A DNA stretch of 11,224 nucleotides, from NCBI GenBank assembly GCA_021846145.1, contig JAJZCJ010000088.1, positions 1 through 11,224 of the forward strand, in the 5' to 3' direction. Source of the DNA: Bacillota bacterium. Its GTDB lineage: Bacteria > Bacillota > Bacilli > Alicyclobacillales > SLC66. Position numbers and translations under genes: made by a program. Of the stretch, positions 1-11,224 are shown piece by piece; within the stretch, counting starts at the first letter, position 1; each line of letters opens with the position of its first letter. The notes under the pieces were generated by a model that had not been told where the DNA came from, did not search any database, and was given only the letters and a program-made list of their open reading frames with translations.

Positions 1-333
1 TGTGTCCCGAATTGGCACATCAAGCAAATCTTGTTTCAATATTTGCTGGTAGTTGGCAATGATAAAATAATCAGGGCACAGTTCTTTGAGTTCCTGAATC
101 AAAGAAGGTGCATTTACCGTTTTAGGCCGGTATACAGAAATCCCCAATGATGATGCCTCTGCCTCCAAATCGACAAAATCACTCTCATTCAGGTAGTAAT
201 CGCAAAGTTTACCTGGAGCGCTGGTAACAAGGGCTAGTAAATTAACTCTAGAATCACCCATTAATTCCCTAAGAAACGGATAGCCGAACTTACTGTTTAC
301 CTCCGAAAACAAGACGATATTTATGGGGTTCAT
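1..333 (-). CDS. Formyltransferase-fold protein (Fmt/PurN-like), N-terminal part only
   Basis: The first 111 codons of a gene that runs off the left edge of the window. It begins MNPINIVLFSEVNSKFGYPF and contains a later VYRPKTVN stretch and NYQQILKQDLLDVP. This follows the pattern of the formyltransferase N-terminal Rossmann-type domain, where family members have a start like IVFxG, a GIPVxxP-xxVN strand and a Y/GxIL-xxxLLxxP helix. The family transfers a formyl group from 10-formyl-tetrahydrofolate to an amine: Met-tRNA in Fmt, a nucleotide in PurN, or a sugar amine. The catalytic N-H-D residues would lie beyond the edge, so activity cannot be judged. Its ATG overlaps the stop of the upstream ThiF-like gene by 4 nt (ATGA), so the two are probably translationally coupled. 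That coupling argues for a dedicated pathway enzyme rather than housekeeping Fmt, which is usually beside def or rsmB. Confidence 0.72.
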   Translation of the reverse strand, partial: MNPINIVLFSEVNSKFGYPFLRELMGDSRVNLLALVTSAPGKLCDYYLNESDFVDLEAEASSLGISVYRPKTVNAPSLIQELKELCPDYFIIANYQQILKQDLLDVPIRDT

Positions 334-1214
334 TCCGCCCACCACGCCTTTTCAACCAGCTTTGCTGTCCAAGTAAGGGAATCGAATACAGCGTATCCTG
401 GTTGGACTGGAAGTTTAATATGTCCCGGGATGTCCATTATTTCGTGTGCCAGGCGTTCCACCAAAATGCCCTCGGCCAGTGGTGGACAGGCTCCGAAAAT
501 AGGCATACGCTCCATATCAACAAACCAATGATCCAACATATCCTGACCGGGGAATTCATGAAGTTCGGGCATTATCCGTTCCATTAAACGCCGCGTCACT
601 TCCGGGGTAATATCAGCGTTCTCTGGAATACCGTAAACTTCTTCAATTGGCATGGAATCTTTGGTGTAAGTGAATACAAACACACTATGTCCTACGGTAG
701 GAATTTTGAACATAAACCTGCAGCGATCTGATTTTCGAAAAGCCCGATGAAGAGCATATCGGTTAGAGATTTGGAAGAAATCCATTTGATCCATGACAAC
801 GTCACAGCCATCCATGAACTCCTCAGCGGATTCCGGGGTAATACCCTCGGGGAAAACGTCAATATTGACGTCTTTCGTCAGTTCATATGCCATTTCCGCT
901 ACAACTTCGGCTTTATTTCGACCTACATTGACTAAGCTAGCCCCCATTTGCCGTTGAATGTTTGTGATATCAAATTGATCTGGGTCGGCCAGTTTTAAAT
1001 TTCGGACCCCCATTCGAATTAATCGCAGAGCTACAGCTCCACCGATGCCACCAGTTCCGGCAATACCGATAACAGCATCACGAAGTTTTTCCTGACGTTC
1101 TTTCTGTTCTTTTTCCGAATTTCCTAACCAACCAAGGTTCCGATCGACACGCTCCCAATAGAGATCACTATTATATTCACCCCGGTATATTGTCCTTTCC
1201 AACTTCTGAAGCAT
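330..1214 (-). CDS. ThiF/MoeB/E1-like adenylyltransferase
   Basis: A 294-residue protein of the ThiF/HesA/MoeB (E1-like) superfamily, which uses ATP to adenylate a carboxylate, typically the C-terminus of a small sulfur-carrier protein or a peptide. The nucleotide-binding loop is GTGGIG at residues 53-58. DPDQFDITNIQRQ at 77-89 carries the usual acidic pair plus the N-x-x-R-Q signature with R88. GRNKAE gives the expected lysine, K101, and D142/D145 match the Mg/ATP aspartates. There is no paired CxxC zinc ribbon and no rhodanese domain. The N-terminal 45 residues are charged and helical and do not resemble the fuller peptide-clamp domain of MccB. Cysteines are at 137, 165 and 243. The ATG is preceded by GGAGGTG at good spacing, and the stop overlaps the formyltransferase start. 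No ubiquitin-like carrier gene is visible here, so the substrate is unknown. Confidence 0.85.
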   Translation of the reverse strand: MLQKLERTIYRGEYNSDLYWERVDRNLGWLGNSEKEQKERQEKLRDAVIGIAGTGGIGGAVALRLIRMGVRNLKLADPDQFDITNIQRQMGASLVNVGRNKAEVVAEMAYELTKDVNIDVFPEGITPESAEEFMDGCDVVMDQMDFFQISNRYALHRAFRKSDRCRFMFKIPTVGHSVFVFTYTKDSMPIEEVYGIPENADITPEVTRRLMERIMPELHEFPGQDMLDHWFVDMERMPIFGACPPLAEGILVERLAHEIMDIPGHIKLPVQPGYAVFDSLTWTAKLVEKAWWAE

Positions 1215-1250
1215 TATCTACACCTCCAGTTTATTTAAAACCTAGGACAA

Positions 1251-1279
1251 TTGTATAAAGCAGATACTTTTGTTATCAT
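1251..1279 (+). promoter_or_regulatory. Sigma-70-type promoter of the ArsR regulator
   Basis: TTGTAT at 1251-1256 and TATCAT at 1274-1279 are separated by exactly 17 bp. The -10 matches the consensus at 5 of 6 positions. Transcription would start about 7 nt downstream, at or next to the ATG at 1286, and no ribosome binding site precedes that ATG. On the opposite strand TATACAA (1251-1257) could serve as a -10 for the ThiF gene, so the two divergent promoters may overlap. Confidence 0.5.
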
Positions 1280-1287
1280 AAAAGTAT
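1264..1287. promoter_or_regulatory. Inverted-repeat operator in the divergent intergenic region
   Basis: ATACTTTT (1264-1271) and AAAAGTAT (1280-1287) form a perfect inverted repeat around an 8-bp spacer. The repeat overlaps the -10 box and start codon of the ArsR-type gene and lies about 50 bp upstream of the ThiF gene. Its symmetry and place suggest the binding site of the adjacent regulator, controlling both directions. This is inference from position. Confidence 0.5.
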
Positions 1288-2008
1288 GGATGTAGGAAAC
1301 GATATTTTTGAAGCAGCCGATTTATTAGCCGACCGAAGCCGAGCGAAGATGCTCGTTGCCCTTAGTGATGGGGGTTCACTACCAGCCAGTGAACTTGCCC
1401 GTATCGCTGGTATTGCTTTGCCTACCGCCAGTCTTCATCTTCGACGATTAACTGAAAAGGATTGGGTTGTAGTAGAAAAGGTTGGTCGACATCGTTACTT
1501 TCGTCTTGCTGTAAATGAAAATCTCCGAAATGCTATCGAAGCTCTTTCGGCTCTATCCTCACCGCCGAGGGTAAAATCATTAAAAGACTCCATTATAATT
1601 CCCACTCTTAAAACCGGGCGGACTTGTTATGACCATCTTGCTGGTATGTTGGGAGTAACGATTGCAAAGACACTATTAGAACGGCAGGTCGTCATTGAAA
1701 ACAGTAACGGTTTTTATGTCACTAGTGATGGGGGTAACTGGTTCTCTTCTTTTGGGATTAATATAGAAGATGTTCAGAAAACGCGAAGAAAATTTGCTCC
1801 GATTTGCGTGGATTGGACCGAACGCCGACACCACATTGGTGGGGCATTAGGTGCTGCAATATACTCCCGCTTTATGGAATTATCTTGGATTGTTAAATCC
1901 CGAGATTCTAGAGCGGTATCATTAACTCCTACAGGTGCTGAAGGTTTACAATCAGTTTTCGGCATTGAATGGATACAGAACTATACGGGATCACAATTAG
2001 ACGTTTGA
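1286..2008 (+). CDS. ArsR-family winged-helix transcriptional regulator
   Basis: A 240-residue DNA-binding regulator. Residues 10-75 form an ArsR-type winged helix: recognition helix region LPASELARIAGIALPTASLHL, wing VVVEKVGRHRYFRL. This is followed by the long C-terminal domain common in this subfamily, with RTCYDHLAGMLGV at 112-124, a CVDWTERRHH motif at 174-183 followed by GGALGAA, and a final LTPTGAEGL segment. Single cysteines at 114 and 174 do not form the classic metal site (ELCVCDL) of ArsR/SmtB, so a small-molecule ligand is more likely than a metal. It is transcribed divergently from the ThiF/formyltransferase genes and probably regulates them and itself through the inverted repeat at its start codon. 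There is no Shine-Dalgarno before the ATG, and promoter spacing predicts a leaderless transcript. Confidence 0.88.
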   Translation: MDVGNDIFEAADLLADRSRAKMLVALSDGGSLPASELARIAGIALPTASLHLRRLTEKDWVVVEKVGRHRYFRLAVNENLRNAIEALSALSSPPRVKSLKDSIIIPTLKTGRTCYDHLAGMLGVTIAKTLLERQVVIENSNGFYVTSDGGNWFSSFGINIEDVQKTRRKFAPICVDWTERRHHIGGALGAAIYSRFMELSWIVKSRDSRAVSLTPTGAEGLQSVFGIEWIQNYTGSQLDV

Positions 2009-2071
2009 AAAAGTCTATTGTGGCAATCTTGATCATCTTTCTCCGTGAAATTCGGACAGTATTCTCAGCTT

Positions 2072-2101
2072 CGTTCAGTGGGATGGCCCCCCCACTGAAC
2101 G
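2072..2101. terminator. Strong stem-loop 64 nt downstream of the ArsR gene
   Basis: CGTTCAGTGGG and CCCACTGAACG form an 11-bp perfect stem around an 8-nt loop (ATGGCCCC). No run of T follows on the plus strand (TAAGG), so it is not a textbook intrinsic terminator. It could still end or stabilise the regulator transcript, or be a scattered palindromic or IS200/IS605-type end hairpin. Confidence 0.4.
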
Positions 2102-2277
2102 TAAGGTATGGTAACTCGCCGCCTATGAAGGCAGGAATTTTAGTATCTCTTGAAAAAGTTAGGTCTAATATCCAGGAAATTCATTAGTGTATATTTTTGT
2201 TAAAATGTCGGTTGAACCCTATTTTCTACAGATGTCGCACATTAGAAATGCCCTTAGAGTTGAAAAAACCGTATATC

Positions 2278-2568
2278 TCAATCCATGAAATCTATCCTCC
2301 CCCCCACCTTGTCAGTGTCAAATAATTGATACCCATTACCCCCTGCCAGAGTAACTGAAGGAGACATGATACGTTGCAAAAATCGGGCATAAAATGAACC
2401 CGACATTAACCCGATAAGTATCGCTGATTTGACTAGAAATTTCGGATTGTATCTCGGTCGGTTTTGGCTTACTCTATGAAAGTAAGGGGCTTCTGAATGA
2501 TTCTCTTCGTAAAAAATCGGATAGTACTCACTAAAGCCATTATTGATCCCACAGATTTTATTAAAGTC
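2278..2568 (-). pseudogene. Possible 5'-truncated reading frame, unknown protein
   Basis: This frame is open for 96 codons with no start codon near its upstream end; the first Met is at about codon 55. The conceptual protein has a natural-looking composition: an acidic and aromatic N-terminal half (FSEYYPIFYEEN), then a hydrophobic segment (KSAILIGLMSGSFYARFL), then a short tail ending RIDFMD. An open stretch of this length without a start is expected by chance several times in a window of this size, so it may mean nothing. I recognise no family. The rest of 2102-2700 holds only AT-rich sequence with scattered stops. Confidence 0.2.
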
Positions 2569-2704
2569 TTAAAATTTGATCTATATCACATCCAACTAAT
2601 CTGGCACATCTTTTTTACGCCAAAATGCCGCTAAACCTTGCCACTTTTGGGCTCATGCCGAATACCGCCGAAAAAATCACATAGCAAGTTTCAGTGGAAT
2701 TCAA

Positions 2705-2899
2705 TTAATTAACGCTCGAATGCAATTGGGTTAAGAGCCGCACTAAGCGCAAGGATAAAGTCAACAATAACAGCAAAACCAAAATCAGCATCAAGAGCAA
2801 AATCAAGAGCAACCCCAAAAATAACGCTCCGAGTAGAACCATCATCAGGATGAACTCTGCCTTATGATATATCACGAAATGGATCAATGAACTAACCAT
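2705..2899 (-). CDS. Small leucine-rich single-pass membrane peptide
   Basis: A 64-residue peptide starting MVSSLIHFVIYHKAEF. AGAGGTGAT lies 7 nt upstream of the ATG, a good ribosome binding site, which is the main reason to believe it. Residues about 17-50 are almost entirely Leu, Ile, Met and Val, enough for one or two membrane crossings, and the tail is weakly basic (RLVRLLTQLHSS). The DNA is low complexity (repeated short AGCAAAATC-like units on the plus strand), so the leucine run could be partly a repeat artefact. It starts 20 nt after the stop of the gene at 2920 and probably shares its transcript. It could be a holin-like or regulatory membrane peptide, but no family is recognised. 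Confidence 0.4.
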   Translation of the reverse strand: MVSSLIHFVIYHKAEFILMMVLLGALFLGLLLILLLMLILVLLLLLTLSLRLVRLLTQLHSSVN

Positions 2900-2919
2900 G
2901 TGAGCGATCACCTCTTGAT

Positions 2920-3213
2920 CTAGACTGATTGAACCGCACCGTCTCCTTCGTGGCCATGAGCCGCTATCAAGATTCCCGCCACAAAATCGGCAAACTGCCG
3001 AAGTTCCTCCCCGCACCGCTCCGCATTGGCCGCTTCCCACCGGTATAACCATTCATGTTGATCATCAGGCAAAACAGCCTTCAACTGTTCGATGAAATTC
3101 TCAGTGTTTCCCTGCTTCCCTGCGGATTCGTACTCATCATAGAAATCGTCGATCAGTTTTTCAGCCAATAAGCGCCTTGCAATGTGACACACCAGCCATC
3201 CACTCCCGGACAC
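2920..3213 (-). CDS. Hypothetical small acidic helical protein
   Basis: A predicted cytoplasmic protein of up to 97 residues, acidic and helix-rich, with a core reading RRLLAEKLIDDFYDEYESAG, then EQLKAVLPDDQHEWLYRWEA, then a hydrophobic FADFVAGILIA near the end. I do not recognise the family. Two GTG starts are possible. The one at 3213 lies just after a promoter-like TTGCTT-17-TAAAGT and overlaps a palindrome. The one at 3192 follows GGGAG at 10 nt and would give 90 residues. The small membrane peptide gene follows after 20 nt, so the two form a short operon. It sits beside the tmRNA-type attachment junction, as small cargo genes of integrated elements often do, but nothing in the protein itself says what it does. 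Confidence 0.5.
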   Translation of the reverse strand: MSGSGWLVCHIARRLLAEKLIDDFYDEYESAGKQGNTENFIEQLKAVLPDDQHEWLYRWEAANAERCGEELRQFADFVAGILIAAHGHEGDGAVQSV

Positions 3214-3222
3214 GTTTGTCCG
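3207..3222. promoter_or_regulatory. Short palindrome at the start of the small operon
   Basis: CGGACA and TGTCCG flank a 4-nt centre, just downstream of a promoter-like TAAAGT (complement of 3223-3228) read on the minus strand. It overlaps the upstream GTG candidate of the 97-residue gene. A repressor site is possible. Confidence 0.25.
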
Positions 3223-3281
3223 ACTTTAGCTTGGTTCCCGACTATAAGCAAGTGAATGAACGCATTACTGAACCCCGACCT

Positions 3282-3300
3282 GGTAGACAAATTGTCTACC
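3282..3300. repeat. Perfect 19-bp palindrome plus TTGTCTAC repeats
   Basis: GGTAGACAA-A-TTGTCTACC is a perfect inverted repeat at 3282-3300. Two further direct copies of TGTCTAC lie at 3334-3340 and 3345-3351. Four copies of one 7-mer within 70 bp, beside an attachment-site-like sequence, suggest binding sites for a recombinase, excisionase or repressor. Confidence 0.4.
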
Positions 3301-3371
3301 AAAATCACGACGAATTCTCCGCTCAAATTCTGATGTCTACAATTTGTCTACAAAACGGCTCCTGGAACGCG

Positions 3372-3398
3372 AAAAACCCGCTATTTACGCGGGTTTTT
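3372..3398. terminator. Rho-independent terminator, bidirectional
   Basis: AAAAACCCGC, a 7-nt loop (TATTTAC) and GCGGGTTTTT form a symmetric stem with T runs on both strands. Read on the minus strand it begins a few bases after the CCA of the tmRNA-like 3' end, the usual place for the ssrA terminator. That supports the left side of the junction being the original chromosomal flank. Confidence 0.7.
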
Positions 3399-3401
3399 CA
3401 A

Positions 3402-3422
3402 TGGAGGCGAGGGGAATCGAAC
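3402..3422 (-). other. tmRNA (ssrA) 3'-end fragment, probable attachment core
   Basis: On the minus strand this reads GTTCGATTCCCCTCGCCTCC followed by A: the T-loop, 3' T-stem strand, acceptor strand and CCA end as in Firmicutes tmRNA genes. Upstream of the T-loop the sequence is GGGGGGAAGCA, which cannot pair properly with the T-stem. No tmRNA body or tag-peptide region is recognisable further up, so this is only the last 20 or so bases of the gene. Such a fragment is what remains at the distal end when a tyrosine integrase inserts an element into ssrA and rebuilds the gene at the other end. No integrase gene is in the window. Confidence 0.55.
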
Positions 3423-3463
3423 TGCTTCCCCCCATCTCTCACCTAGTGTTATCTTTTCCCCGA

Positions 3464-3547
3464 TTGTCCCGTGTTGTCCGCATTTGTGCGACTTCAATTT
3501 CTTATCTTGTCCCGGCTGATCCCATCTAATCTTGCGGCGTATTGTCC
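3464..3547. repeat. Four TTGTCC repeats beside the attachment core
   Basis: TTGTCC occurs at 3464, 3474, 3507 and 3542, all in the same orientation, three of them followed by CG or C. Clusters of short direct repeats next to the core are typical arm-type integrase sites, and GGACAA-type arms are common for elements that use ssrA. Their position implies that the integrated element lies to the right of the core. Confidence 0.45.
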
Positions 3548-3639
3548 ACTTTGGATACAGCATTGGATACAGAATCGGTGAATTTGGTGAGAAAGATCGC
3601 CTATTTGTTATCTTGCATTATGACATACTGGTTGAAAAA
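3535..3639 (+). repeat. 105-bp direct repeat, copy A
   Basis: This segment aligns without gaps to 11033-11137, with 83 of 105 bases identical by hand count; the best block is GGTGAGAAAGATCGCCTATT. In the plus frame it could encode a GEKDRL-x-VI-x-HY-like peptide, but substitutions fall about equally on all three codon positions. A decayed or non-coding repeat is therefore more likely than a conserved gene. The neighbouring 3640-3808 is AT-rich with nothing recognisable. Confidence 0.6.
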
Positions 3640-3808
3640 CAGTGCTTTAATTACATGAACTACCCATATCTAAATTATAGTTTCTGTAGAAATGTAAATT
3701 TTTGTTATTATTATACTAAAGCTCCCGATTGAGTAATGTCATTTTTTACATTTTAGTTGCGAGTTCATAGAATCAAATCTTTTGTAAAGATTACACACTT
3801 CACATAAG

Positions 3809-3838
3809 AAATGAGCAGCAGCATCGCTGTGCCCATTT
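3809..3838 (-). terminator. Probable terminator of the GntR-slipin operon
   Basis: AAATGAGCAGCAGC (3809-3822) and GCTGTGCCCATTT (3826-3838) pair with one mismatch and one bulge around a 3-nt loop, about 54 nt after the slipin stop on the minus strand. The stem is followed by TTTCTTATG-like sequence, so the T run is weak. Confidence 0.4.
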
Positions 3839-3891
3839 GCCTTGTCATTGGGATTTGTTGTAATTAAAACCTAAAGAAAATTTTTGATATT

Positions 3892-4803
3892 TCAACGAAT
3901 AGAGGTTTCTTCTTCGATAGTTGGTTTCTCAAGATTATGGCTATTTGCAAGCGCAAGTACGTTGCCGATATTTGCTGCGTCTGCCAATGAGCTTGGGACT
4001 ACAATGAGCGATGCTTTCTCCTTAATTCCTTCATAGAGTATGTTCATCGCTCGAAGTTGCAGGGCAACAGGATTGTTATTATACATCTCTGCAGCCTTTA
4101 GGAATGACTCAGCAACTTGTTTCTCTGCATCACCGAGAATGGTTCTAGCTGTACGTTCTTTTTCTGCCTGTGCTGCACGTGACATGGCATCCTGCAAGTT
4201 CCCTGGTATATTAATATCACGAACTTGTACATTTTGAATGGTGATGCCCCATGGTTCCGTTCTCTCGTCCATTAGCTCTTTTAACTCTAAATCGATAGTC
4301 TCACGGGTTGACAATAAGTTATCTAAATTAGTTTTCCCAATCACATTTCTCAATGCGGTTTGAGCTGCCCACAATACAGATTCATTATAATTTACCACTT
4401 CCAATGCGGCTTTTTGTGCGTCCCACACCATCCAGAACAATACCGCATCAACATTTACAGGAATTGTATCCTTGGTCAATGTTTGTTCCGCGTTAAACTT
4501 TGTGGTAATGACGCGTTGGTCGATATAGGTTGGGACAGTATCAACAAAAGGAACAATTACAAATAGACCAGGACCCGCCATTTTTCTAAACCTACCCAAT
4601 CGAAGAACTATAGCTTTCTCCCATTGATTCGCCACTCGGAAAGAATCCGCTAGTAACCATCCTAAAACCGTAATAACCAAAAGAGTTATAATTCCCATTA
4701 CTAAGTGATCATCAATGAATAAAATTCCTCCCAATACCACTGCAGCAGCTAAAAAGATAACAAAAATTAATTTTTGAATTCCCTGTACTTTTCGCTTCTC
4801 CAT
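3892..4803 (-). CDS. Slipin (stomatin/SPFH-domain) membrane protein
   Basis: A 303-residue bacterial stomatin. Two hydrophobic segments (about 12-30 and 35-52) form the membrane anchor. An SPFH/Band 7 domain follows, starting RVANQWEKAIVLRLGRF and GPGLFVIVPFVDTV, with IDQRVITT and the ITIQNVQVRDINIP strand. A coiled-coil then carries the typical AAQAEKERTARTILGDAEKQ segment, and an acidic tail ends the protein. Slipins oligomerise as scaffolds in the inner membrane and often pair with an NfeD-type protein; none is encoded here. An ATG at 4818 is in frame, but AGGTGG sits 6 nt before the ATG at 4803, so that start is preferred. It follows the GntR gene by 26 nt and is probably co-transcribed and repressed by it. 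The GntR-slipin pairing recurs in Firmicutes. Confidence 0.9.
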   Translation of the reverse strand: MEKRKVQGIQKLIFVIFLAAAVVLGGILFIDDHLVMGIITLLVITVLGWLLADSFRVANQWEKAIVLRLGRFRKMAGPGLFVIVPFVDTVPTYIDQRVITTKFNAEQTLTKDTIPVNVDAVLFWMVWDAQKAALEVVNYNESVLWAAQTALRNVIGKTNLDNLLSTRETIDLELKELMDERTEPWGITIQNVQVRDINIPGNLQDAMSRAAQAEKERTARTILGDAEKQVAESFLKAAEMYNNNPVALQLRAMNILYEGIKEKASLIVVPSSLADAANIGNVLALANSHNLEKPTIEEETSIR

Positions 4804-4829
4804 CAACATCCACCTCATTTATGAGATTT

Positions 4830-5225
4830 TCATTTTTGGTGTTCGTTACCGGAATTTAATAGACGTTGCAACCCGGCAATCAGTTCAAGAAGTGTGACTC
4901 CATTTGCTTGAGCCATTTCTGCGATCACGGTTGAAATTTTGTTAACAATGCTTTCTCGAGAATCTGCTCCACCCATCCAATCTTCCTGTGGACGTACAAA
5001 GGTTCCTTTTCCTTGCTGAGTGCGAATAAACCCTTCTCTTTCAACTTCTTGGTATACACGACTAACAGTGTTTACGTTGATGCTGATATCAACAGCCATC
5101 TGCCTTACTGTCGGAAGTTGGTATCCCGCTTCCCATTCACCCTGAATAATCCTTTGGATAATTTGCTGCTTAAGTTGCAAGTACAGTGGAATGCCAGTGC
5201 TTGCATCTAGACTCCAATTTACCAC
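4830..5225 (-). CDS. YtrA-type GntR-family transcriptional repressor
   Basis: A 131-residue regulator with the GntR winged helix at residues about 10-78: YLQLKQQIIQ, QLPTVRQMAVDISINVNTVS as helix-turn-helix, and the wing TQQGKGTFVRP. Only a short helical C-terminal region of about 45 residues follows, the mark of the YtrA subfamily, which has no large ligand domain. The frame extends to TTG at 5240, but that codon lies upstream of the AGGGGTGA ribosome binding site. The duplicate copy at 9829-10059 has ATG at the position of GTG 5225, so GTG 5225 is chosen. A perfect palindrome directly upstream is its likely operator, making the gntR-slipin operon autoregulated. YtrA-type repressors commonly respond to cell-envelope stress or antibiotics, which would suit a slipin target. 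Confidence 0.88.
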   Translation of the reverse strand: MVNWSLDASTGIPLYLQLKQQIIQRIIQGEWEAGYQLPTVRQMAVDISINVNTVSRVYQEVEREGFIRTQQGKGTFVRPQEDWMGGADSRESIVNKISTVIAEMAQANGVTLLELIAGLQRLLNSGNEHQK

Positions 5226-5244
5226 CAATTCACCCCTCAAAGTT

Positions 5245-5272
5245 ACATTGTAATAATATATTATTACAATGT
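5245..5272. promoter_or_regulatory. Perfect 28-bp palindromic operator of the GntR-slipin operon
   Basis: ACATTGTAATAATA is followed by its exact reverse complement, centred 19 nt upstream of the ribosome binding site region. The same core, TTGTAATAATATATTATTACAA, sits upstream of the GntR pseudogene at 10074-10113, so its conservation marks it as the GntR binding site. Promoter boxes must lie in or beside it and cannot be separated from the palindrome by eye. Confidence 0.75.
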
Positions 5273-5308
5273 GTTTAAGGATACAATTTTAAATCGTATC
5301 ATGTGGTA

Positions 5309-5539
5309 ATGACGCTATGGGGTACTTTCCCGAAAGCAGCTCAAGTATTAGACGAGGCACTCGATGAGGAGCTGACCTACGGAATTTTCGAATAAGCACT
5401 AGATGCGAAACAGATCAATTCGAACAATCCACTAAAACGCGTGAATCGGCGACGGATGAACGTGGTGGAACCACTACTGCTGGATAGTCACGAAACGCTA
5501 TTTCAGCAAGAAATTGATGGCAAAAAAAACTTGAATTAA
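5309..5539 (+). pseudogene. IS256-family transposase C-terminal remnant
   Basis: One plus-strand frame reads MTLWGTFPKAAQVLDEALDE, then a stop (TAA), then KQINSNNPLKRVNRRRMNVV and a degraded tail to another stop. IS256-family (Mutator-type) transposases end with FPKAAxxLExAxxDxLAxxxFP and then a S/T-TNPLERLNxEIKRRTxVVG block, and both motifs are recognisable in order and at about the right spacing. The catalytic domain is missing, the linking segment contains a stop, and conserved residues have changed, so this is a dead fragment. It lies immediately upstream of the GntR operator in the opposite orientation. The following 5540-5705 holds nothing I can identify. Confidence 0.65.
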
Positions 5540-5705
5540 GGTCAGACAGCAATACGAGCCGGATGCCCCATAAGCAACACAAAGGGATCGGCACCCTCTC
5601 ACTACCAAATAACACAACTAGATAGGACTTGATCAATAAGAATTCCTAAAATTCGAGTTCGCAAATGCTTAGTGTGTAAAACCATTAAAATGTATTCTGT
5701 ATCCC

Positions 5706-5861
5706 TTATCTAATGAATGTTTTTTTGACTCGTTTGGACCGCAGAACATAGAGAATAAGTGCAACATTTACGATCATGCCGAATATAGCACTATACATCA
5801 GGATAGTGCTACTGTTTATGCCTGTTGCTGCTAGCATTGTTTGTCGGTAGATTTCCCACAG
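5706..5861 (-). pseudogene. Clipped C-terminal tail of a membrane protein
   Basis: The frame is open from a TGA at 5862-5864 to the TAA at 5706 and has no start with a ribosome binding site. It reads LWEIYRQTMLAATGIN, then a hydrophobic helix SSTILMYSAIFGMIVNVALI, then a basic tail LRSKRVKKTFIR. That is one transmembrane segment followed by positive charges, as in a genuine membrane-protein C-terminus. The upstream end coincides with the proposed left end of the transposon (TGTCGGT at 5842), so the insertion probably removed the rest. It is short enough that chance cannot be excluded. Confidence 0.35.
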
Positions 5862-5949
5862 TCATTGTCATCTGGAATTCACGGTGTACTCTTGCGAAAG
5901 TGGCGGAGAAAGCCCATCCAAATTCAGATAGGCACCGCGGTTATTTTCT

Positions 5950-6177
5950 CTATTTCTCCATACGGACAGCATAAGTTCCCTTGTGCCATAGACTAAGTCG
6001 CGCATTCCCGAGAAGGACATACCAATTTTCTGCATGCTCAATTCGCCCTTGCACATATCGGTCGCCTAGATGGAACGCCACCGTGTCTCCGCTGTGTAAC
6101 CACCACGCACCGTGGCGGTCTTCAAATCGCCAGTGTTCAATATCCTCGTCGTAAAGAAGCTTGCCAAACCGCTTCAT
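5950..6177 (-). CDS. DUF5348-domain protein, transposon accessory
   Basis: A 75-residue protein, MKRFGKLLYDEDIEHWRFED onward, with the short beta-rich pattern of DUF5348: a WWLHSGDTVAF core at 25-35, then a GRIEHAENWYVLLG strand-turn-strand. Its biochemical role is unknown. Genes of this family are repeatedly found as the last gene after transposase and ExeA-like ATPase genes in Firmicutes, which suggests a role in transposition or target choice. A GTG start at 6195 is in frame, but GGAGGTGA lies 5 nt before the ATG at 6177. That ATG overlaps the ATPase stop as ATGA, giving translational coupling. Confidence 0.75.
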   Translation of the reverse strand: MKRFGKLLYDEDIEHWRFEDRHGAWWLHSGDTVAFHLGDRYVQGRIEHAENWYVLLGNARLSLWHKGTYAVRMEK

Positions 6178-6971
6178 CCGTTCACCTCCCACCACGCACT
6201 TTCTACATTGGTGACGCCCACCACTTGTTCTCCTTGCATCGCTACGTTGAGCAAGGCTGCCTTGCAGATGCTGTTCACCACACGTGGCACGCCTTTACTC
6301 AGTTTTGCAATCTGCGCCACCGCATCTGCCGCAAATACCATCCGTTCTTCGCCCACCCGAAGCAATTGTTCCTTCATATAAAACGACAGCTCCTCGATGG
6401 TCATTGGCGTCATCGCGTAGCGCATCTCAATGCGCTGGGACAATGGGGTAAGTACCCGCAGTCGCAGTGTCTCACGAAGTTCCGTCTGTCCCACCAGCCA
6501 GAGCGACAGCGGGGAGAATGAGTCAGCGCGAAAATTCAGTAGGTAGCGTAACTCTCCGAGCACCAGCGGATTCAGATCATGTGCCTCGTCGATCACCGCC
6601 ACCACCTGTTGCCCAGATACATAGCTTTCTTCGAGTGCCTGTTGTACCAGCGCATGGTTGTCGCTGTACCGAACATGGGGTTCAATGTGTAATCGTTCGA
6701 GCAAAATGCGTACCAGTGTTTGTGAAGAGAGACTTGCGCTGGCCACGTAGATGGACCGGTAGTGGGCTGCGTCTAAACGGTGCAGGGCTGCGCGTACCGC
6801 TGTTGTCTTACCCATCCCCGTATCGCCTGTGACCAGTGCCAGTTGCCTGTGTTCGGCGGCAAACAATAGTCGAGCCGTCACCTCACTGTGTGCCTGAAAG
6901 GAGACGAGAGATTCTACGGGAATGTCGCGGTCAAAGGGATCGGACGTCCAGCCAAAATGCTTGGCAATCAC
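6174..6971 (-). CDS. ExeA/TniB-type AAA+ ATPase, transposition regulator
   Basis: A 265-residue AAA+ ATPase, full length for this group. The N-terminus, HFGWTSDPFDRDIP, is the hallmark start of ExeA-like ATPases. Walker A is GDTGMGKTT at 49-57, Walker B is VVAVIDEAHDL at 123-133 with D128 and E129, sensor 1 is at LVGQTELR (159-166), and KGVPR at 226-230 supplies a sensor-2 arginine. In Mu/Tn7/Tn5053-type transposons the ATPase (MuB, TnsC, TniB) forms ATP-dependent filaments on target DNA and activates the transposase. The gene starts with GTG overlapping the transposase stop (GTGA), with GAGGTGA 7 nt upstream. It ends by overlapping the DUF5348 start. Confidence 0.9.
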   Translation of the reverse strand: MIAKHFGWTSDPFDRDIPVESLVSFQAHSEVTARLLFAAEHRQLALVTGDTGMGKTTAVRAALHRLDAAHYRSIYVASASLSSQTLVRILLERLHIEPHVRYSDNHALVQQALEESYVSGQQVVAVIDEAHDLNPLVLGELRYLLNFRADSFSPLSLWLVGQTELRETLRLRVLTPLSQRIEMRYAMTPMTIEELSFYMKEQLLRVGEERMVFAADAVAQIAKLSKGVPRVVNSICKAALLNVAMQGEQVVGVTNVESAWWEVNG

Positions 6972-8347
6972 TGCGACTCACCTCGTTTCTCTTTCTGGCT
7001 ATACCACGTAGGCTTTGCACGGCTTTGGCGAATCGCTTCGTCTTGTACCTTGAGGGTGTCGAGAAATGAGCTGCCTGTTTCGATAGGTGCTGTATCGTCT
7101 GGGACTTGGTCTTTGGCCAATTTCTTATCGGTATGCCGACGAATGGTAAGCGGCGTGGCATCGGCATATCGCTTCCCTTCGTACCACACTTGGATGTCGC
7201 GTAAATCGTAGGGATCATAGCGAATCTCCACCTTACAACGCACGAGTACAGGCTCCACTTCATACGTATTACCTTGGACCGAGATGCAGGCCGTCTTATC
7301 CACTTTCGCTTCCGCTGCTCGTAAAAACGCTTGTCGTAATACAAGGGGATCAACAAGTCGAAGTGGGCCGTCTTCTTGCACCACCTGCGCTGGTCGCTTT
7401 TTCAGGGTGCGATGCACACGCTGGTGGTACATCGTCTCCAACCAAGCTTGGAAGTAGGCGTTGAGCTCCTCCAGATTCGCAATTTTCCCTTGTCGTACGT
7501 ACAGTTCTGCTTCAGGACGAAAGGCGCGCTCCACATAGCCAAACCATTTTTCAATCTTGCCGCGCCCCTGAGGCAAATATTTGGTCGAGTGAACCACTCT
7601 GAATTTCAACCGAGCGGCAATTTCCGTCAGGTGCGTCGCTTGAAAGACAGGTCCATTGTCGCAGTAAAATTTTTCCGGAGTTCCGTATTTGGAAATCGCT
7701 CTCTTCAAAGTTTCTTCGAGCGTCGGCAGATTCTCGCGAAAGAAGTACGTAGCTTGGCAGATATATCTCGACTTGTCGTCAAGTACGGCAAACAAGCGGG
7801 CGACGCGCATCTGCCCGTTCATTTGCGGGTCAGGGATGCGTAGTGAATCGCAGACATCGCTCTGCCAGACCTCGTGGACACGCGTGGCCGTATAACGTTG
7901 CCATACTTGAGATTTACGAATAGCTTTGGCACGGGCAAGACCTGCCTTTCGTAAATGCACGGATAAGGTACTCCGCTTGAGCACCCCCTTTGGGGCCATG
8001 CCTTCCATTTCGAGCATGGTAATCAGTTGTTCCACTGTGCGGGCGGGTTGTTCTCGTCGTAATACTATCGCCCGGTCAATGACTGCTTGTGGCAGGGCAC
8101 GCGGACGGTGACGATCATCGCGTGCTTGGGGATACAGTGCATCGAGTCCGCCTTTTCTGTAGTCCGCCATGTACCGTTCCAGCGTACGAATGGAGAAGCG
8201 CTTCTGAATACCTCCGGGGACTTCATAAACACGTTTTGCCACCTGTTCAAGTTGTGCTTGCAGTGCCCCGCGATGCGGGCTTTGCAGGAGCACGCAAATG
8301 AGTTCATAGCGGAACAGGGCGATTTGCCTTCGTTCTTCTTCGTTCAT
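6968..8347 (-). CDS. DDE transposase (rve core, Mu-type C-terminal domain)
   Basis: A 459-residue transposase. An N-terminal helix-turn-helix region (residues about 1-140, including FSIRTLERYMADYRKGGLDA) is followed by an RNase H-like integrase core. Catalytic residues are D164 in VWQSDVCDSL, D230 in KFYCDNGPVF and E266 in GRGKIEKWFG; D230 and E266 are separated by exactly 35 residues, so the site is intact. A beta-barrel-type Mu C-terminal domain (about 340-405, with VQGNTYEVEP) follows, then a polar tail (TGSSFLDTLKV) of the kind that contacts the partner ATPase. The frame opens at TTG 8362, but AGGAGAG sits 6 nt before the ATG at 8347, which is taken as the start. Ninety-two bp separate it from the DUF6431 gene, and it overlaps the ATPase gene by 4 nt. 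Confidence 0.92.
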   Translation of the reverse strand: MNEEERRQIALFRYELICVLLQSPHRGALQAQLEQVAKRVYEVPGGIQKRFSIRTLERYMADYRKGGLDALYPQARDDRHRPRALPQAVIDRAIVLRREQPARTVEQLITMLEMEGMAPKGVLKRSTLSVHLRKAGLARAKAIRKSQVWQRYTATRVHEVWQSDVCDSLRIPDPQMNGQMRVARLFAVLDDKSRYICQATYFFRENLPTLEETLKRAISKYGTPEKFYCDNGPVFQATHLTEIAARLKFRVVHSTKYLPQGRGKIEKWFGYVERAFRPEAELYVRQGKIANLEELNAYFQAWLETMYHQRVHRTLKKRPAQVVQEDGPLRLVDPLVLRQAFLRAAEAKVDKTACISVQGNTYEVEPVLVRCKVEIRYDPYDLRDIQVWYEGKRYADATPLTIRRHTDKKLAKDQVPDDTAPIETGSSFLDTLKVQDEAIRQSRAKPTWYSQKEKRGESQ

Positions 8348-8395
8348 GAGATCTCTCCTCAACCTTTGGGATAATCCTATTGTCGAGATGTCGGG

Positions 8396-8434
8396 TCATT
8401 CACACTAGAGATCACTTTGTGTGGGATGAATCAC
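8396..8434. promoter_or_regulatory. Interrupted inverted repeat before the transposase gene
   Basis: In the 92-bp gap between the DUF6431 stop and the transposase start, ATTCACAC at 8398 faces GTGTGGGATGAAT further right, pairing in two blocks around a short unmatched stretch. It may be a transposase or DUF6431 binding site controlling the transposase operon, or a structured leader. Confidence 0.25.
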
Positions 8435-8439
8435 CGGAT

Positions 8440-9165
8440 TTACGGGGAATGTCCAGGTGACAGGCCATACGACACCCTGTTCACCGACACCGATGGAGCA
8501 AATAGGCAAACCGCGATACGCAACACGTTCCAAGCTGCACTGGCACCCAACCCAACGGCGACCTGCCACCTTTCACCGAGTGCATAAAAGAAACAGACGG
8601 TTCGCTCACGAACCGACATTGGAATGGTCGGGGACAGGACATCTGGCTGTTGTGACAGCACAAGGGCCGTAAACCGAGCGGTGATGTCGTGGATTTGTAG
8701 GACACTGCGAAAGTACCAACGTTTGAGCGTCTGCGTAGAAAGCGAGCCGAGGGGAGAGGGGCTGGACTCAGCCACTTTGGCATAGCTGACACCGCTCGCG
8801 AGTTTCTTGACTACGATCTCCTGCACGGCAACTGCCACACGCTGGTAGGGGGCCACGATTTCTGGAAGGATTCCAAACGTCCTTTTACAGACGGGGCAAC
8901 GGCGACGATGGGCGCGAAAGTCCTCGCTATGATCCTCAAAATGGACGGTTCGGGGATAGGAGCCATGTCCGTGCGTCAGCGAATAGAGGCAATGAATACA
9001 AGGAAAATCTGTGGGGCAAAGCGAAGAAATGTGCAATTCATAAACGAATCGCAAATGGCCTGGTTCATGGCTATTGACGATGATACCAATGTAGCCTACG
9101 ATGGGCATAGGAATTCTGCCTTTGGGCAGTTGATTTGGATGCACGGATAAGGGCTGGGAAACCAT
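8440..9165 (-). CDS. DUF6431-type zinc-ribbon protein, transposon accessory
   Basis: A 241-residue protein whose N-terminal half matches the pattern of DUF6431 proteins. It has C50 and CIHC (56-59), a HGHGSYPR motif (65-72), then RRRCPVCKRTFGILPE with C90 and C93: two cysteine pairs forming a zinc ribbon like those of IS1/ISL3-type transposase leaders. The C-terminal half has a helical KLASGVSYAKVAE stretch like a helix-turn-helix and further uncharacterised helices. It probably binds DNA, and it accompanies the transposase module. ATG 9165 follows GGAG at 9 nt; MPIVGY at residue 20 is an alternative start. A strong hairpin lies directly upstream of the ribosome binding site. The family name is from memory of the motif pattern. 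Confidence 0.7.
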   Translation of the reverse strand: MVSQPLSVHPNQLPKGRIPMPIVGYIGIIVNSHEPGHLRFVYELHISSLCPTDFPCIHCLYSLTHGHGSYPRTVHFEDHSEDFRAHRRRCPVCKRTFGILPEIVAPYQRVAVAVQEIVVKKLASGVSYAKVAESSPSPLGSLSTQTLKRWYFRSVLQIHDITARFTALVLSQQPDVLSPTIPMSVRERTVCFFYALGERWQVAVGLGASAAWNVLRIAVCLFAPSVSVNRVSYGLSPGHSP

Positions 9166-9186
9166 TCATCCGTACTCCAGCCAAAT

Positions 9187-9228
9187 GAAAACACCACTTG
9201 GAATCTACCCGATTCCAGTGGTGTTTTC
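9187..9228. terminator. Long hairpin just upstream of the DUF6431 gene
   Basis: GAAAACACCACTTGGAATC (9187-9205) and GATTCCAGTGGTGTTTTC (9211-9228) pair over 18 bp with one bulged base around a 5-nt loop. Read on the minus strand it would form in the leader, ending about 10 nt before the ribosome binding site. It could block transcription entering from outside the element, act as an attenuator, or occlude translation. Confidence 0.6.
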
Positions 9229-9291
9229 TACATGGATCGCCAAACCCCTCTATTCCACATTTGTGGACACACCCTTCACAAGTATAAATGA

Positions 9292-9356
9292 TGTCGGTTA
9301 AAGGAGGTATTCCGTTTTGCACTACGCTTCGAGTGGAATTTCTCCTTTAACCGACA
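9292..9356. repeat. 65-bp inverted-repeat structure at the right transposon end
   Basis: Arms at 9292-9313 (starting TGTCGGTTAAAGGAG) and 9335-9356 (ending CTCCTTTAACCGACA) are 22 bp long and match at 20 of 22 positions around a 21-bp centre. The outer TGTCGG/CCGACA tips begin with TGT and end with ACA, as expected for Mu/Tn7-type termini. The two oppositely oriented copies may be paired transposase-binding sites of one end, or a separate small palindromic insertion. Confidence 0.7.
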
Positions 9357-9762
9357 GTGACTTATAGCAACTACGCCGCCAATGGTGACATTCAATGCGA
9401 GCATAAACAATGCCGCCTATACAAATAAGTAAAATAACAAAATTACGTAAAATCGCCCAGCTTTGAAGCCCTATAAACCAGTTTATAAAATCCCTTCGTC
9501 TTTTCATGAATTTGATCAACGCGATAATTGCAATAATGCTAGCGCCAAAAGAAGTCACTAAATCTATCCCATGTACAGTCGGGGTTGAGATCAGTTCTAC
9601 CCAATGTATATTCGGAGTTGTGAAAAGCCTTCGAAACGATAACCATAGAGAGTCAATAATAAAGCCGATAGGCTTAAAAATTGCACTAACCCATAATAAT
9701 GTTGCGATTAAACCTAACCAACCCTGTATCGGAGCCTTTTCTTCATTCAATGAGACCGTCAT
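9322..9762 (-). pseudogene. Polytopic membrane protein truncated by the transposon end
   Basis: A 146-codon frame starting MTVSLNEEKAPIQGWLGL, with a poly-G ribosome binding site 6 nt before the ATG at 9762. It predicts several membrane segments: GLIATLLWVSAIFKPIGFII, a second about GASIIAIIALIKF followed by a basic KRRR loop, and a third, NFVILLICIGGIVYARI. No family is recognised. The last dozen codons (from SLSVKGEIPLEA) are read from the inverted repeat of the transposon, so the native C-terminus is lost. The gene follows the GntR pseudogene in the place that the slipin gene holds after the intact GntR copy, suggesting that it was once controlled by that regulator. It may still be expressed as a shortened protein. 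Confidence 0.55.
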
Positions 9763-9828
9763 AATCATCCCCCCATGTTTTTTCATTAAATAATTACGCA
9801 ATTGTAGCATCCTAGCATGCATTATGAT

Positions 9829-10059
9829 CCGCCTGTGAGCGAACAAATGCTCCCCTTCCTTGTTGAGTGCGAATAAAACCCTCTTTTCAACTTCTTGGTA
9901 TACGCGACTAACGGTGTATACGTTGATACTGATATCAACAGCCATCTGCCTTACTGTCGGAAGTTGGTATCCCGCTTCCCTTTCGTTCTGGAAAATTTGC
10001 TGCTTAAGTTGCAAATACTGTGGCATGCCATTGCTTGCATCTAGGCTCTAATTCGTCAT
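9829..10059 (-). pseudogene. Duplicated YtrA-type GntR gene, inactivated
   Basis: A near copy of the GntR gene at 4830-5225; the stretch encoding AGYQLPTVRQMAVDISINV is unchanged at protein level and nearly so in DNA. Three lesions are visible. The third codon after ATG is AAT and the fourth is TAG, where the intact gene has TGG (Trp4). Four codons are missing between the first helix and EAGYQLP. A base is lost after YQEVE, shifting the wing (TQQGKGTF) out of frame, and the C-terminal dimerisation region is absent. A later Met could restart translation of the helix-turn-helix, but the frameshift would still spoil it. The low divergence means the duplication is fairly recent. Confidence 0.85.
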
Positions 10060-10073
10060 TTGTCCACCCCCTC

Positions 10074-10113
10074 AAAGTCATATTGTAATAATATATTATT
10101 ACAATATGACTTT
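10074..10113. promoter_or_regulatory. Perfect 40-bp palindromic operator upstream of the GntR pseudogene
   Basis: AAAGTCATATTGTAATAATA is followed by its exact reverse complement, with no mismatch and no spacer. The central 22 bp are identical to the operator of the intact GntR-slipin operon at 5245-5272. The regulator next to it is broken, so the intact paralogue could act on this site in trans. Confidence 0.75.
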
Positions 10114-10204
10114 GCAATCAAGCAGATTCGATGAGATTCCCATACCTTTTTGGGGTACATATCGACCACAGGAGTATATTTGTACAATTATGTTAATGTA
10201 CTTA

Positions 10205-10528
10205 TATTCCGTTATCGGGAAATTGACGGAGGTAGTGGGTATGGTGTAGGGCCTTTTATAAAACATGGTAGTGATATGCCTTTTGGCTCGAGCGTATCAA
10301 GGTTTTTCGCTTGTTTGCGTATTGCGGTTTATATGGGTTCACTGGTATTCACCACGCACTTCTCAACCTAGCTTCGGCCCGAATTCACTCTATCTGGCGC
10401 GGCTACATTGTCCCGTGAGCTATCGCCAGACCGCGTTACCACTATCCCACGTCACGGTAGGTTCGCGTCCGCAGTTCTGGACGAACGGATTTGAACCGCA
10501 TGATAACCAACAACTTTTGAGTCGCAAC
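10205..10528 (-). mobile_element. Probable group II intron 5' fragment (domain I), truncated
   Basis: Read on the minus strand from 10528, the sequence begins GTTGCGACTCAAAAG, close to the GTGCGACTC-type 5' end of chloroplast-like bacterial group II introns. It continues with blocks typical of their domain I: GTGGTGAATACCAGTGAACC, then GAAAAACCTTGATACGCTCG, then AAGGCATATCAC and CCCTACACCATACCCACTAC. The start falls exactly after a Trp codon of the IS5-type transposase fragment, as expected for an intron inserted into an IS gene. Domains V and VI and the reverse transcriptase are missing, so it cannot splice or move. The 3' limit near 10205 is approximate. Identification rests on remembered sequence patterns, not a covariance search. 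Confidence 0.45.
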
Positions 10529-10642
10529 CCAGGGAATCATGAACGTAAGTTTGACCCAGCGATTTTCTGGATTCAACCTTCCGCCAAATGGGAGGAAAAA
10601 ATCATCGGGAGGTAGGAATTGGTATTCGGAATGACGGTACAC
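10529..10642 (-). pseudogene. IS5-type transposase N-terminal fragment
   Basis: GTG at 10642, with GGAGG 7 nt upstream, opens a frame reading VYRHSEYQFLPPDDFFLPFG, then GRLNPENRWVKL and MIPW. This is the start of IS5/IS1182-like DDE transposases, which open with a pattern like FxxFFLPFGGKLxPxNRWVKLAxLIPWDxxE. After MIPW the frame leaves the family pattern at the proposed intron junction and ends at 10442. All catalytic residues are lost. The upstream 10643-10800 may include the left end of the insertion sequence, but no inverted repeat could be confirmed. Confidence 0.6.
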
Positions 10643-10809
10643 GATCAACCCTCCAAATGCACGGCTTTTATGTGGAATTAAGGGAAATATATGCATATCA
10701 TATCGACATAGAGGGGTAAAAATCCTTTAAATACAGGGCAAAATCCCCATTCAGCAGGCCCTACTTATTTGTTAAATTTCACATTTGTGAATTTCACTAC
10801 GTTTTAGGC

Positions 10810-10950
10810 TCACTTCATACCTCCACTATAATTAGGTATTCTTTCCTCGTAAATATTCCAAAGTCCATCACTGCCTACTCCAAATTCATGTTCAGACCGT
10901 TGTGTTACAACCTCAATACATTTCTCTATATCACACAAAGCTACAGTTTT
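10810..10950 (-). pseudogene. Possible protein-tail fragment, unknown family
   Basis: The frame is open for 46 codons between TAA at 10951-10953 and TGA at 10810, with no start codon at the upstream side. It reads TVALCDIEKCIEVVTQRSEH, then EFGVGSDGLWNIYEER and a short tail. The composition looks like a soluble globular protein, but the length is well within chance. Nothing else is recognisable between 10643 and 11032. Confidence 0.25.
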
Positions 10951-11032
10951 TTAAAGGCGATTGCTGAATTTCTTTACTCTAAGCTTCAAAATGCTATTCC
11001 ACCAGTCCCATAAAGTAATTGAGTTTATTGCT

Positions 11033-11137
11033 CAGCGTATTCTTACCTTTGGCTACAGAATTGTATACAGATCCATTGAACTCGGTGAGAAAGATCGCCT
11101 ATTGGTTATCATGCATTATGGTGTACTAATTGAAAAG
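11033..11137 (+). repeat. 105-bp direct repeat, copy B
   Basis: This is an ungapped match to 3535-3639, same orientation, about 79 percent identical by hand count. It lies in an open frame (FGYRIVYRSIELGEKDRLLV) without a convincing ribosome binding site. Together the two copies bracket about 7.4 kb that includes the GntR-slipin operon, the transposon and the GntR pseudogene. Confidence 0.6.
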
Positions 11138-11224
11138 TCCCTCATTAATAACTCAACTTTCGCATGTCAAAAGTGACAGATACCCCTTGATATAACTAGG
11201 CAGAGAGGCTATCCAGTTTAGAAG

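Follow-up and report, generated by a model that had tools for sequence, protein, structure and literature searches.

An apparently unnamed family of AAA+-assisted DDE transposons with a conserved DUF6431 partner

Which proteins, beyond a transposase and its ATPase, belong to the machinery of a small transposon, and which are passengers? The question is raised by contig JAJZCJ010000088.1 (assembly GCA_021846145.1) of a Bacillota bacterium from the order Alicyclobacillales, of which positions 1 to 11,224 were analysed and are called the window here. It carries a compact transposon with four minus-strand genes in one operon, encoding a DUF6431 protein, a DDE transposase, an AAA ATPase and a DUF5348 protein. 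A preliminary description made from the sequence alone took the DUF6431 and DUF5348 proteins as the only candidates for target selection, end recognition or regulation, and would have called them passengers if related elements consistently lacked them. We put at about 0.7 the probability that the element is one of a widespread and apparently unnamed group of AAA+-assisted DDE transposons that share as their core DUF6431, a transposase like TnsB/TniA and an ATPase like TnsC/TniB/MuB. What is new here is the conserved DUF6431 partner, which defines the family; leader hairpins and an internal nucleotide block are new and unexplained parts.

The core was evaluated by anchoring on the transposase and then checking the upstream gene for DUF6431. 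The order and phylum searched are those of Alicyclobacillus sp. SP_1 (genome G001), which holds L001, the single relative found in a contig search, with a transposase 86% identical to that of the window. DUF6431 lies directly upstream of the transposase at 28 of 31 loci in the order (36 places were listed in this search, and many of the 31 loci are copies of one element) and at 26 of 29 in the phylum at large, the latter being the new ones among at most 30 loci taken from the 79 of 398 sampled genomes with a transposase relative at E 1e-20. The same arrangement occurs in all eight plasmid loci chosen by hand among 40 listed of 863 records, and in a further plasmid relative (L232); these nine plasmid loci come from three phyla, and plasmids of Actinomycetota and Pseudomonadota are among those with the three-gene core. 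Pairwise distances for DUF6431 and transposase are correlated (Mantel r 0.72 for 47 elements, reached in 0 of 2000 permutations), and those for transposase and ATPase likewise (0.84, 47 elements). Because it is found directly upstream in most transposase-anchored loci and co-diversifies with the transposase, DUF6431 is by these comparisons a core gene, not a passenger.

Some loci without DUF6431 are damaged or cut short. The transposase of L005 is truncated; L010/L043 has lost the DUF6431 match and keeps only a block from the 3′ end of the gene, and L011/L051 has other mobile DNA upstream, including by eye an IstB-like gene in L051, both cases looking decayed; L206 and L210 have less than 520 nt of contig upstream of the transposase. 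Other observations weigh against a strict core role. L225 has 1.5 kb upstream of the transposase, with another frame and no DUF6431 match; the DUF6431 of plasmid locus L175 scores 19.3 bits with Pfam, below the 26.6 cut-off; and linkage of genes by itself also yields correlated distances. Moreover, when the anchor is reversed to DUF6431 (PF20020, found in 95 of 398 phylum genomes), the transposase appears in the fetched stretch of 21 of 29 phylum loci (L094-L122), and the eight loci without it indicate that DUF6431 can occur in other settings too, or as part of a remnant. Among such loci, L094/L153 stops at a contig end, and L159 has DUF6431, an ATPase fragment and DUF5348, as though the transposase had been deleted; in wider stretches around the remaining ones no transposase was seen. 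Eight weaker PF20020 loci (L162-L169) all have adjoining transposase sequence, in some cases broken.

Unusual forms of DUF6431 were noted as well. Small variants of 127-138 aa in L156, L158 and L160, with no transposase found in 7.5 kb, each lie downstream of a similar protein containing ...GLTWSSNA.EGNTL, and in L155 DUF6431 forms the beginning of a frame of 1,335 aa. A DUF6431-transposase fusion in L225 was discarded; the long frame passes through a masked stretch.

The DUF6431 gene of the window (8440..9108, minus strand; PF20020, E 2.5e-8) most likely starts at ATG 9108, rather than at 9165, because the nearer relatives have the same start (MPIV...); the predicted 222-aa protein has a zinc ribbon and a helix-turn-helix (HTH) of ISL3 type. 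A gap of 92 nt separates it from the ATG of the transposase gene (6968..8347, minus strand), for which TTG 8362 is also a possible start. The transposase has rve (2.6e-13) and Mu-transpos_C (1.3e-8) domains, and matched TnsB chains in a phmmer search (E 1.4e-4). Its described catalytic triad D164, D230 and E266 is in place when counted from the ATG, the same residues being D169, D235 and E271 in the 464-aa frame that opens at the TTG five codons earlier. The ATPase gene (6174..6971, minus strand; AAA_22, PF13401, 3.3e-21) also has its Walker motifs as described, A beginning at residue 49 and B near residue 123. Placing this ATPase with TnsC, TniB and MuB leans on weak matches (TniB at 15.6 bits with a cut-off of 22.4, MuB at E 0.033), and the higher score of TIGR03015 (135 bits, under its own cut-off) speaks against it. 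The DUF5348 gene (5950..6177, minus strand; PF17295, 6.9e-10), encoding a predicted small barrel protein, starts at ATG 6177, with a longer GTG frame reaching 6195. The last three genes are indeed chained by 4-nt overlaps, of the ATPase start with the transposase stop (6968-6971) and of the DUF5348 ATG with the ATPase stop. A Pfam scan of the four genes found no TniQ, TnsA, TnsD or resolvase/recombinase domain, bearing out the view that neither a TniQ/TnsD-type protein nor a resolvase is encoded.

DUF5348 fares differently from DUF6431 among relatives. Of 48 distinct elements, 8 were found to have it after the ATPase, a lower bound, as 5 of the 40 elements without it have less than 1.1 kb of sequence after the transposase; when DUF5348 loci were searched directly, 15 of 30 fetched adjoined this ATPase. 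With 8 of 48, DUF5348 was rejected as a core gene and is, on present sampling, an accessory one. The proposed check for passengers therefore gives different answers for the two, DUF5348 being mostly missing and DUF6431 kept; to treat the two as equal candidates was a mistake, and DUF6431 becomes the leading one.

The complete transposon spans 5823..9409 (minus strand, 3,587 bp, TGTTGCTGCT...GAGCATAAACA), as determined by comparison with L001 and multi-copy relatives and by an empty site that restores an open reading frame. Its terminal inverted repeats are of the TGT..ACA type, with the downstream (DUF5348-side) end at 5823..5845 (plus strand) agreeing at 18 of 23 positions with the upstream (DUF6431-side) end at 9387..9409 (minus strand); by eye, TGTC-type repeats are present near both ends. 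Perfect 5-bp target-site duplications (ATGCC) occupy 5818..5822 and 9410..9414. The preliminary description had ended the element at TGTCGG motifs (5842 and 9356). These ends are rejected because similarity to L001 continues outward on both sides, through 19 and 53 further bp, stopping at TGTTTATGCTC... and ...AGCAGCAACA, and because the duplications lie outside those positions; TGTCGG is internal, and its copy at 9356 is a hairpin arm (9292-9356). Removal in silico of the element and one ATGCC yields a single open frame across the site, ending ...LYVLRSKRVKKTFIR. The interrupted host gene encodes a small membrane protein, its N-terminal part at 9415..9762 and its C-terminal part at 5706..5817 (both minus strand). 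In a search of 59 genomes of the order a homologue was matched in one (L238, genome G041); it is 34% identical, contiguous over the site, and ends ...LYIVRSERVKKTFVH. The L001 copy sits, by eye, within an IS110-type transposase gene.

Exact direct repeats of 5 or 6 bp flank 12 of the 13 copies read at both ends, a count that leaves out those in which one end was absent, broken up, unlocated or uninspected (e.g. L033, L037, L041, L042, L044, L047, L049, L055 and the G026 copies). The duplications are of 5 bp in the window, L001, L034, L035 and L039, and of 6 bp in L036, L038, L048, L050, L052, L053 and L054; L040, the contrary case, has both ends present and no matching duplication. No strong shared target motif was found in 12 aligned insertion sites, where the top column holds 0.75 bit (n=12); site-specific targeting was thus rejected, although a weak preference may exist. 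Element length was 3.2-3.6 kb in the eight copies measured.

Ten copies are found in genome G031 (3.6 Mb), with transposases 60-62% identical to that of the window. Nine of them form one group, in which eight are 99.8-100% identical to L039 over the longest aligned stretch while occupying different sites. From this we infer that the G031 copies moved recently and that the family has recently been active; the window element, described as possibly active, is probably so. Two rearrangements were seen among these relatives. L034 is a composite in which a tandem partial copy (~360 bp) of its own upstream end precedes the element (1693-2057 as oriented), the composite being flanked as a whole by AGCAT repeats. 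In L033 and L037 (G031, oriented), the same sequence, which looks like a group II intron, interrupts the element near its downstream end, after CCCCCTTTATTTA.

Between the upstream end and the DUF6431 gene lies an operon leader (9109..9409, minus strand) predicted to fold into successive hairpins. Hairpin 1 (9292..9356, minus strand; z -6.4) is the palindrome earlier taken for an end, and it recurs in L001 and L045, where the loop GAAGCGTAG is the same and the outer stem common, but the inner stem differs. Hairpin 2 (9187..9228, minus strand; z -7.3) shows covariation in relatives: both partners have changed in 6 of its 13 pairs (0 of 500 shuffles), though in only six distinct rows, and the L035 row, cut before the 3′ arm, contributes mostly gaps. 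Hairpin 3 (9137..9178, minus strand; z -4.8) appears to be a divergent version of a hairpin that in a clade at 42% identity has a conserved AGGUUUGGCNGCCU at its apex. Covariation within this clade is weak (both partners changed in 2 of 14 pairs; 23 of 500 shuffles). A model of that relatives' hairpin, R1, has 24 matches, spread over 12 of 59 genomes from the order, and 12 of the 24 are at known elements; ten further loci comprise four with a DUF6431 match (one weak and in two pieces), one with an ATPase remnant and five with neither, among them L196, which by eye shows an element-like end. R1 fails to recover the window's own hairpin 3, reaches E 0.14 for L044 and 0.25 for L042, and had no match below E 1 among the PF20020-core loci that were searched. 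For 13 leaders, folding predicts a similar two-part structure. Rfam, at E up to 1, matched the leader only with microRNA families, below their gathering scores. The structured leader would most likely limit expression of the operon, e.g. from read-through transcription.

Two conserved nucleotide blocks (both minus strand) lie further into the operon, TGTCGGTGAACAGGGTGTCGTATGG inside the DUF6431 gene at its 3′ end (8465..8489) and the intergenic ATTCATCCCACACAAAGTGATCTCTAG before the transposase gene (8405..8431). Codon identity at shared degenerate residues, in five elements, is 0.75 in the former 25-nt block, 0.44 in the gene body and 0.85 in the first 12 codons. The 25-nt block is exact or nearly exact in the window, L001, L045, L042, L044, L009 and L043, the last retaining it despite the absent DUF6431 match, and has 2 of 25 changes in L033; it includes TGTCGGTGAA, as does the downstream end of L001. 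A short-motif search of distant clades (L048, L053, L003, L173, L013) gave at most one single match each and no block. An RNA structure across 8405-8489 was rejected: the two stretches are partly complementary, with no covarying pair, pairing as extensive as that observed arises in 154 of 500 shuffles, and single-sequence z-scores (n=5) range from -1.0 to +1.2. Our guess is that either DUF6431 or the transposase might bind at block 8465-8489.

The affinities of DUF6431 bear on what it may do. Using hhalign, DUF6431 aligns with the N-termini of eight ISL3 sequences at 91.0% (A1 set) and 97.6% (broad set) over 100-112 columns, and with 20 TniQ (PF06527) proteins from genomes of the order at 1.6% and 3.2%; homology to TniQ is rejected on these values. 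Weak Pfam ISL3 matches occur in 5 of 33 DUF6431 members. DUF6431 is the sole domain of its protein (222-241 aa), which has no catalytic DDE domain. TniQ was not among the fold-search rows shown for DUF6431, which by itself is uninformative. The role that we consider most likely, at about even odds, is that DUF6431 binds the element's own DNA, acting as an obligate transpososome partner and as a regulator of the operon. Several points count against this: the AlphaFold model is of moderate confidence (pLDDT 69.4) with weak fold matches, TniQ is present in 18 of 59 genomes from the order, and DUF6431 accompanies it in several (for example G002, G005, G042), and the need for DUF6431 in transposition is drawn from sequence comparison.

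DUF6431 might instead be a target-side adaptor, a stand-in for TniQ without homology to it that would link the ATPase filament to target DNA and show hardly any preference for sequence. Like TniQ in Tn7-like elements it is a third conserved core gene, here in an element without TniQ, and PMC10293859 gives a zinc finger with helical domains as the TniQ recipe. The C-terminal tail of DUF6431 is conserved within its own clade, and G031, with many such elements, has 15 DUF6431 matches and no TniQ match. Yet profile similarity with TniQ is nil (1.6% and 3.2%), the 12 insertion sites lack a strong common motif, and Mu and Tn552 are not known to use a TniQ-like adaptor, which leaves the adaptor a possible but doubtful role. 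According to PMC10293859, a target selector has yet to be reported for IS21, too.

Unlikely, in our judgement, is that DUF6431 does no more than repress the operon, at the transcriptional or post-transcriptional level, while transposition needs just the transposase and ATPase. Its first place in the operon behind a structured leader would suit a repressor, as would the combination of an HTH protein with a palindrome, hairpin 1, in the leader of its own gene, and the 92-nt gap sets it apart from the tightly coupled transposase and ATPase genes. However, DUF6431 is kept beside very divergent transposases in three phyla, distances over which regulators would generally be expected to be swapped or lost. 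We think it quite improbable that the elements make up a separate AAA+ branch in which the ISL3-type protein, the leader RNA and the internal block are all working parts of the transposition complex, for RNA- or enhancer-assisted transposition without need for TniQ.

Tn552 and Tn5053 (Tn402) have TGT..ACA ends, 5-bp duplications and a resolvase, and Tn5053 also has TniQ. The window element shares with them the ends, the 5-bp duplications and a DDE transposase with rve and Mu-C adjacent to an AAA ATPase, but it has DUF6431, and no resolvase was found in its four genes; Tn5053 is also covered in PMC11406308. Four distant relatives (L230, L231, L233, L234; 29-31% identity over 63-74% of the transposase query) have no DUF6431 at E 0.1, and directly upstream of their transposase is a gene annotated 'recombinase family protein', on the opposite strand in two. 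That the window element is an ordinary Tn552/Tn5053-type transposon, its resolvase lost and passengers carried, is hardly credible: the transposase is distantly related (~24-31% over part of its length) and one of its matches is annotated as transposase for transposon Tn552, but DUF6431 is common to the whole clade, and it is those four relatives, with a recombinase gene in the upstream place, that lack it.

Other known systems were compared. Tn7-like elements (TnsABC with TniQ/TnsD) likewise have proteins of the TnsB and TnsC kinds, inverted repeats and a 5-bp duplication, and the TGTC-type repeats seen by eye may correspond to their arrays of transposase binding sites; they differ in TnsA, TniQ and TnsD, domains that the four genes were not found to encode. 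Like the window element, IS21 (IstA/IstB) and phage Mu (MuA/MuB) pair a DDE transposase with an AAA+ ATPase and have little target sequence preference, but the window transposase reaches 49 bits against the IS21 model, whose cut-off is 160, and neither IS21 nor Mu is known to have a DUF6431 partner. The N-terminal zinc ribbon and HTH region of ISL3 transposases resembles DUF6431. The latter, however, stands on its own as a small protein that lacks a catalytic domain, and the transposase encoded next to it is an unrelated one. IS481 elements are single-gene; IS481 is the best NCBIfam match of the window transposase (156.3 bits), but under the cut-off of 224, and an ATPase gene accompanies the window transposase.

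A published role for DUF6431 or DUF5348 was not found in the literature searched, outside which most subscription journals lie, in keeping with the earlier remark that both are undescribed. DUF6431 came up only as an annotation, in a gene table in PMC12323340, adjoining a DDE transposase gene, and DUF5348 nowhere in that literature; the word DUF6431 is not used in the surveys PMC8649781 and PMC10293859. The family was not seen among the titles and abstract beginnings listed by a wider search, and it may have a name in ISfinder or TnCentral.

Judging from related transposons, the transposase would bind the repeats in both ends, nick the 3′ ends and join them to a staggered target, while the ATPase would coat and choose target DNA. 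As neither a TnsA nor a resolvase gene is present, the joined product would be resolved by replication and host recombination. DUF6431, as a free-standing ISL3-type zinc-ribbon/HTH protein, would bind the ends, the leader palindrome or block 8465-8489, and the small barrel protein DUF5348 would tune the system, in some lineages only.

The surroundings of the element contain further repeats. The transposon lies between two copies of a GntR-regulator segment (4980-5273 and 9827-10108), 79-93% identical over pieces, that carry the palindrome TTGTAATAATATATTATTACAA; the gene of the second copy, which appears degraded, scores under the Pfam cut-off. The whole region is flanked by a direct repeat of 138 nt (73% identical; 3537-3674 and 11035-11172, spaced by 7,498 nt), and 10359-10488 (minus strand) matches the Rfam group II intron end domain RF02012 at 38.1 bits, the gathering score being 34. 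Elsewhere, four fluoride riboswitch matches surround one inserted copy in L053 (20-81, 1143-1205, 1366-1431 and 6717-6781).

Tn7-superfamily transposons are under development as insertion tools, and elements without TniQ raise the question of what links transposase, ATPase and target. In this small, recently active family, DUF6431 appears as one consistent extra protein whose part could be tested by simple deletion. If essential, it would be a new third component of such systems; otherwise the family would represent a minimal, two-protein AAA+ transposon.

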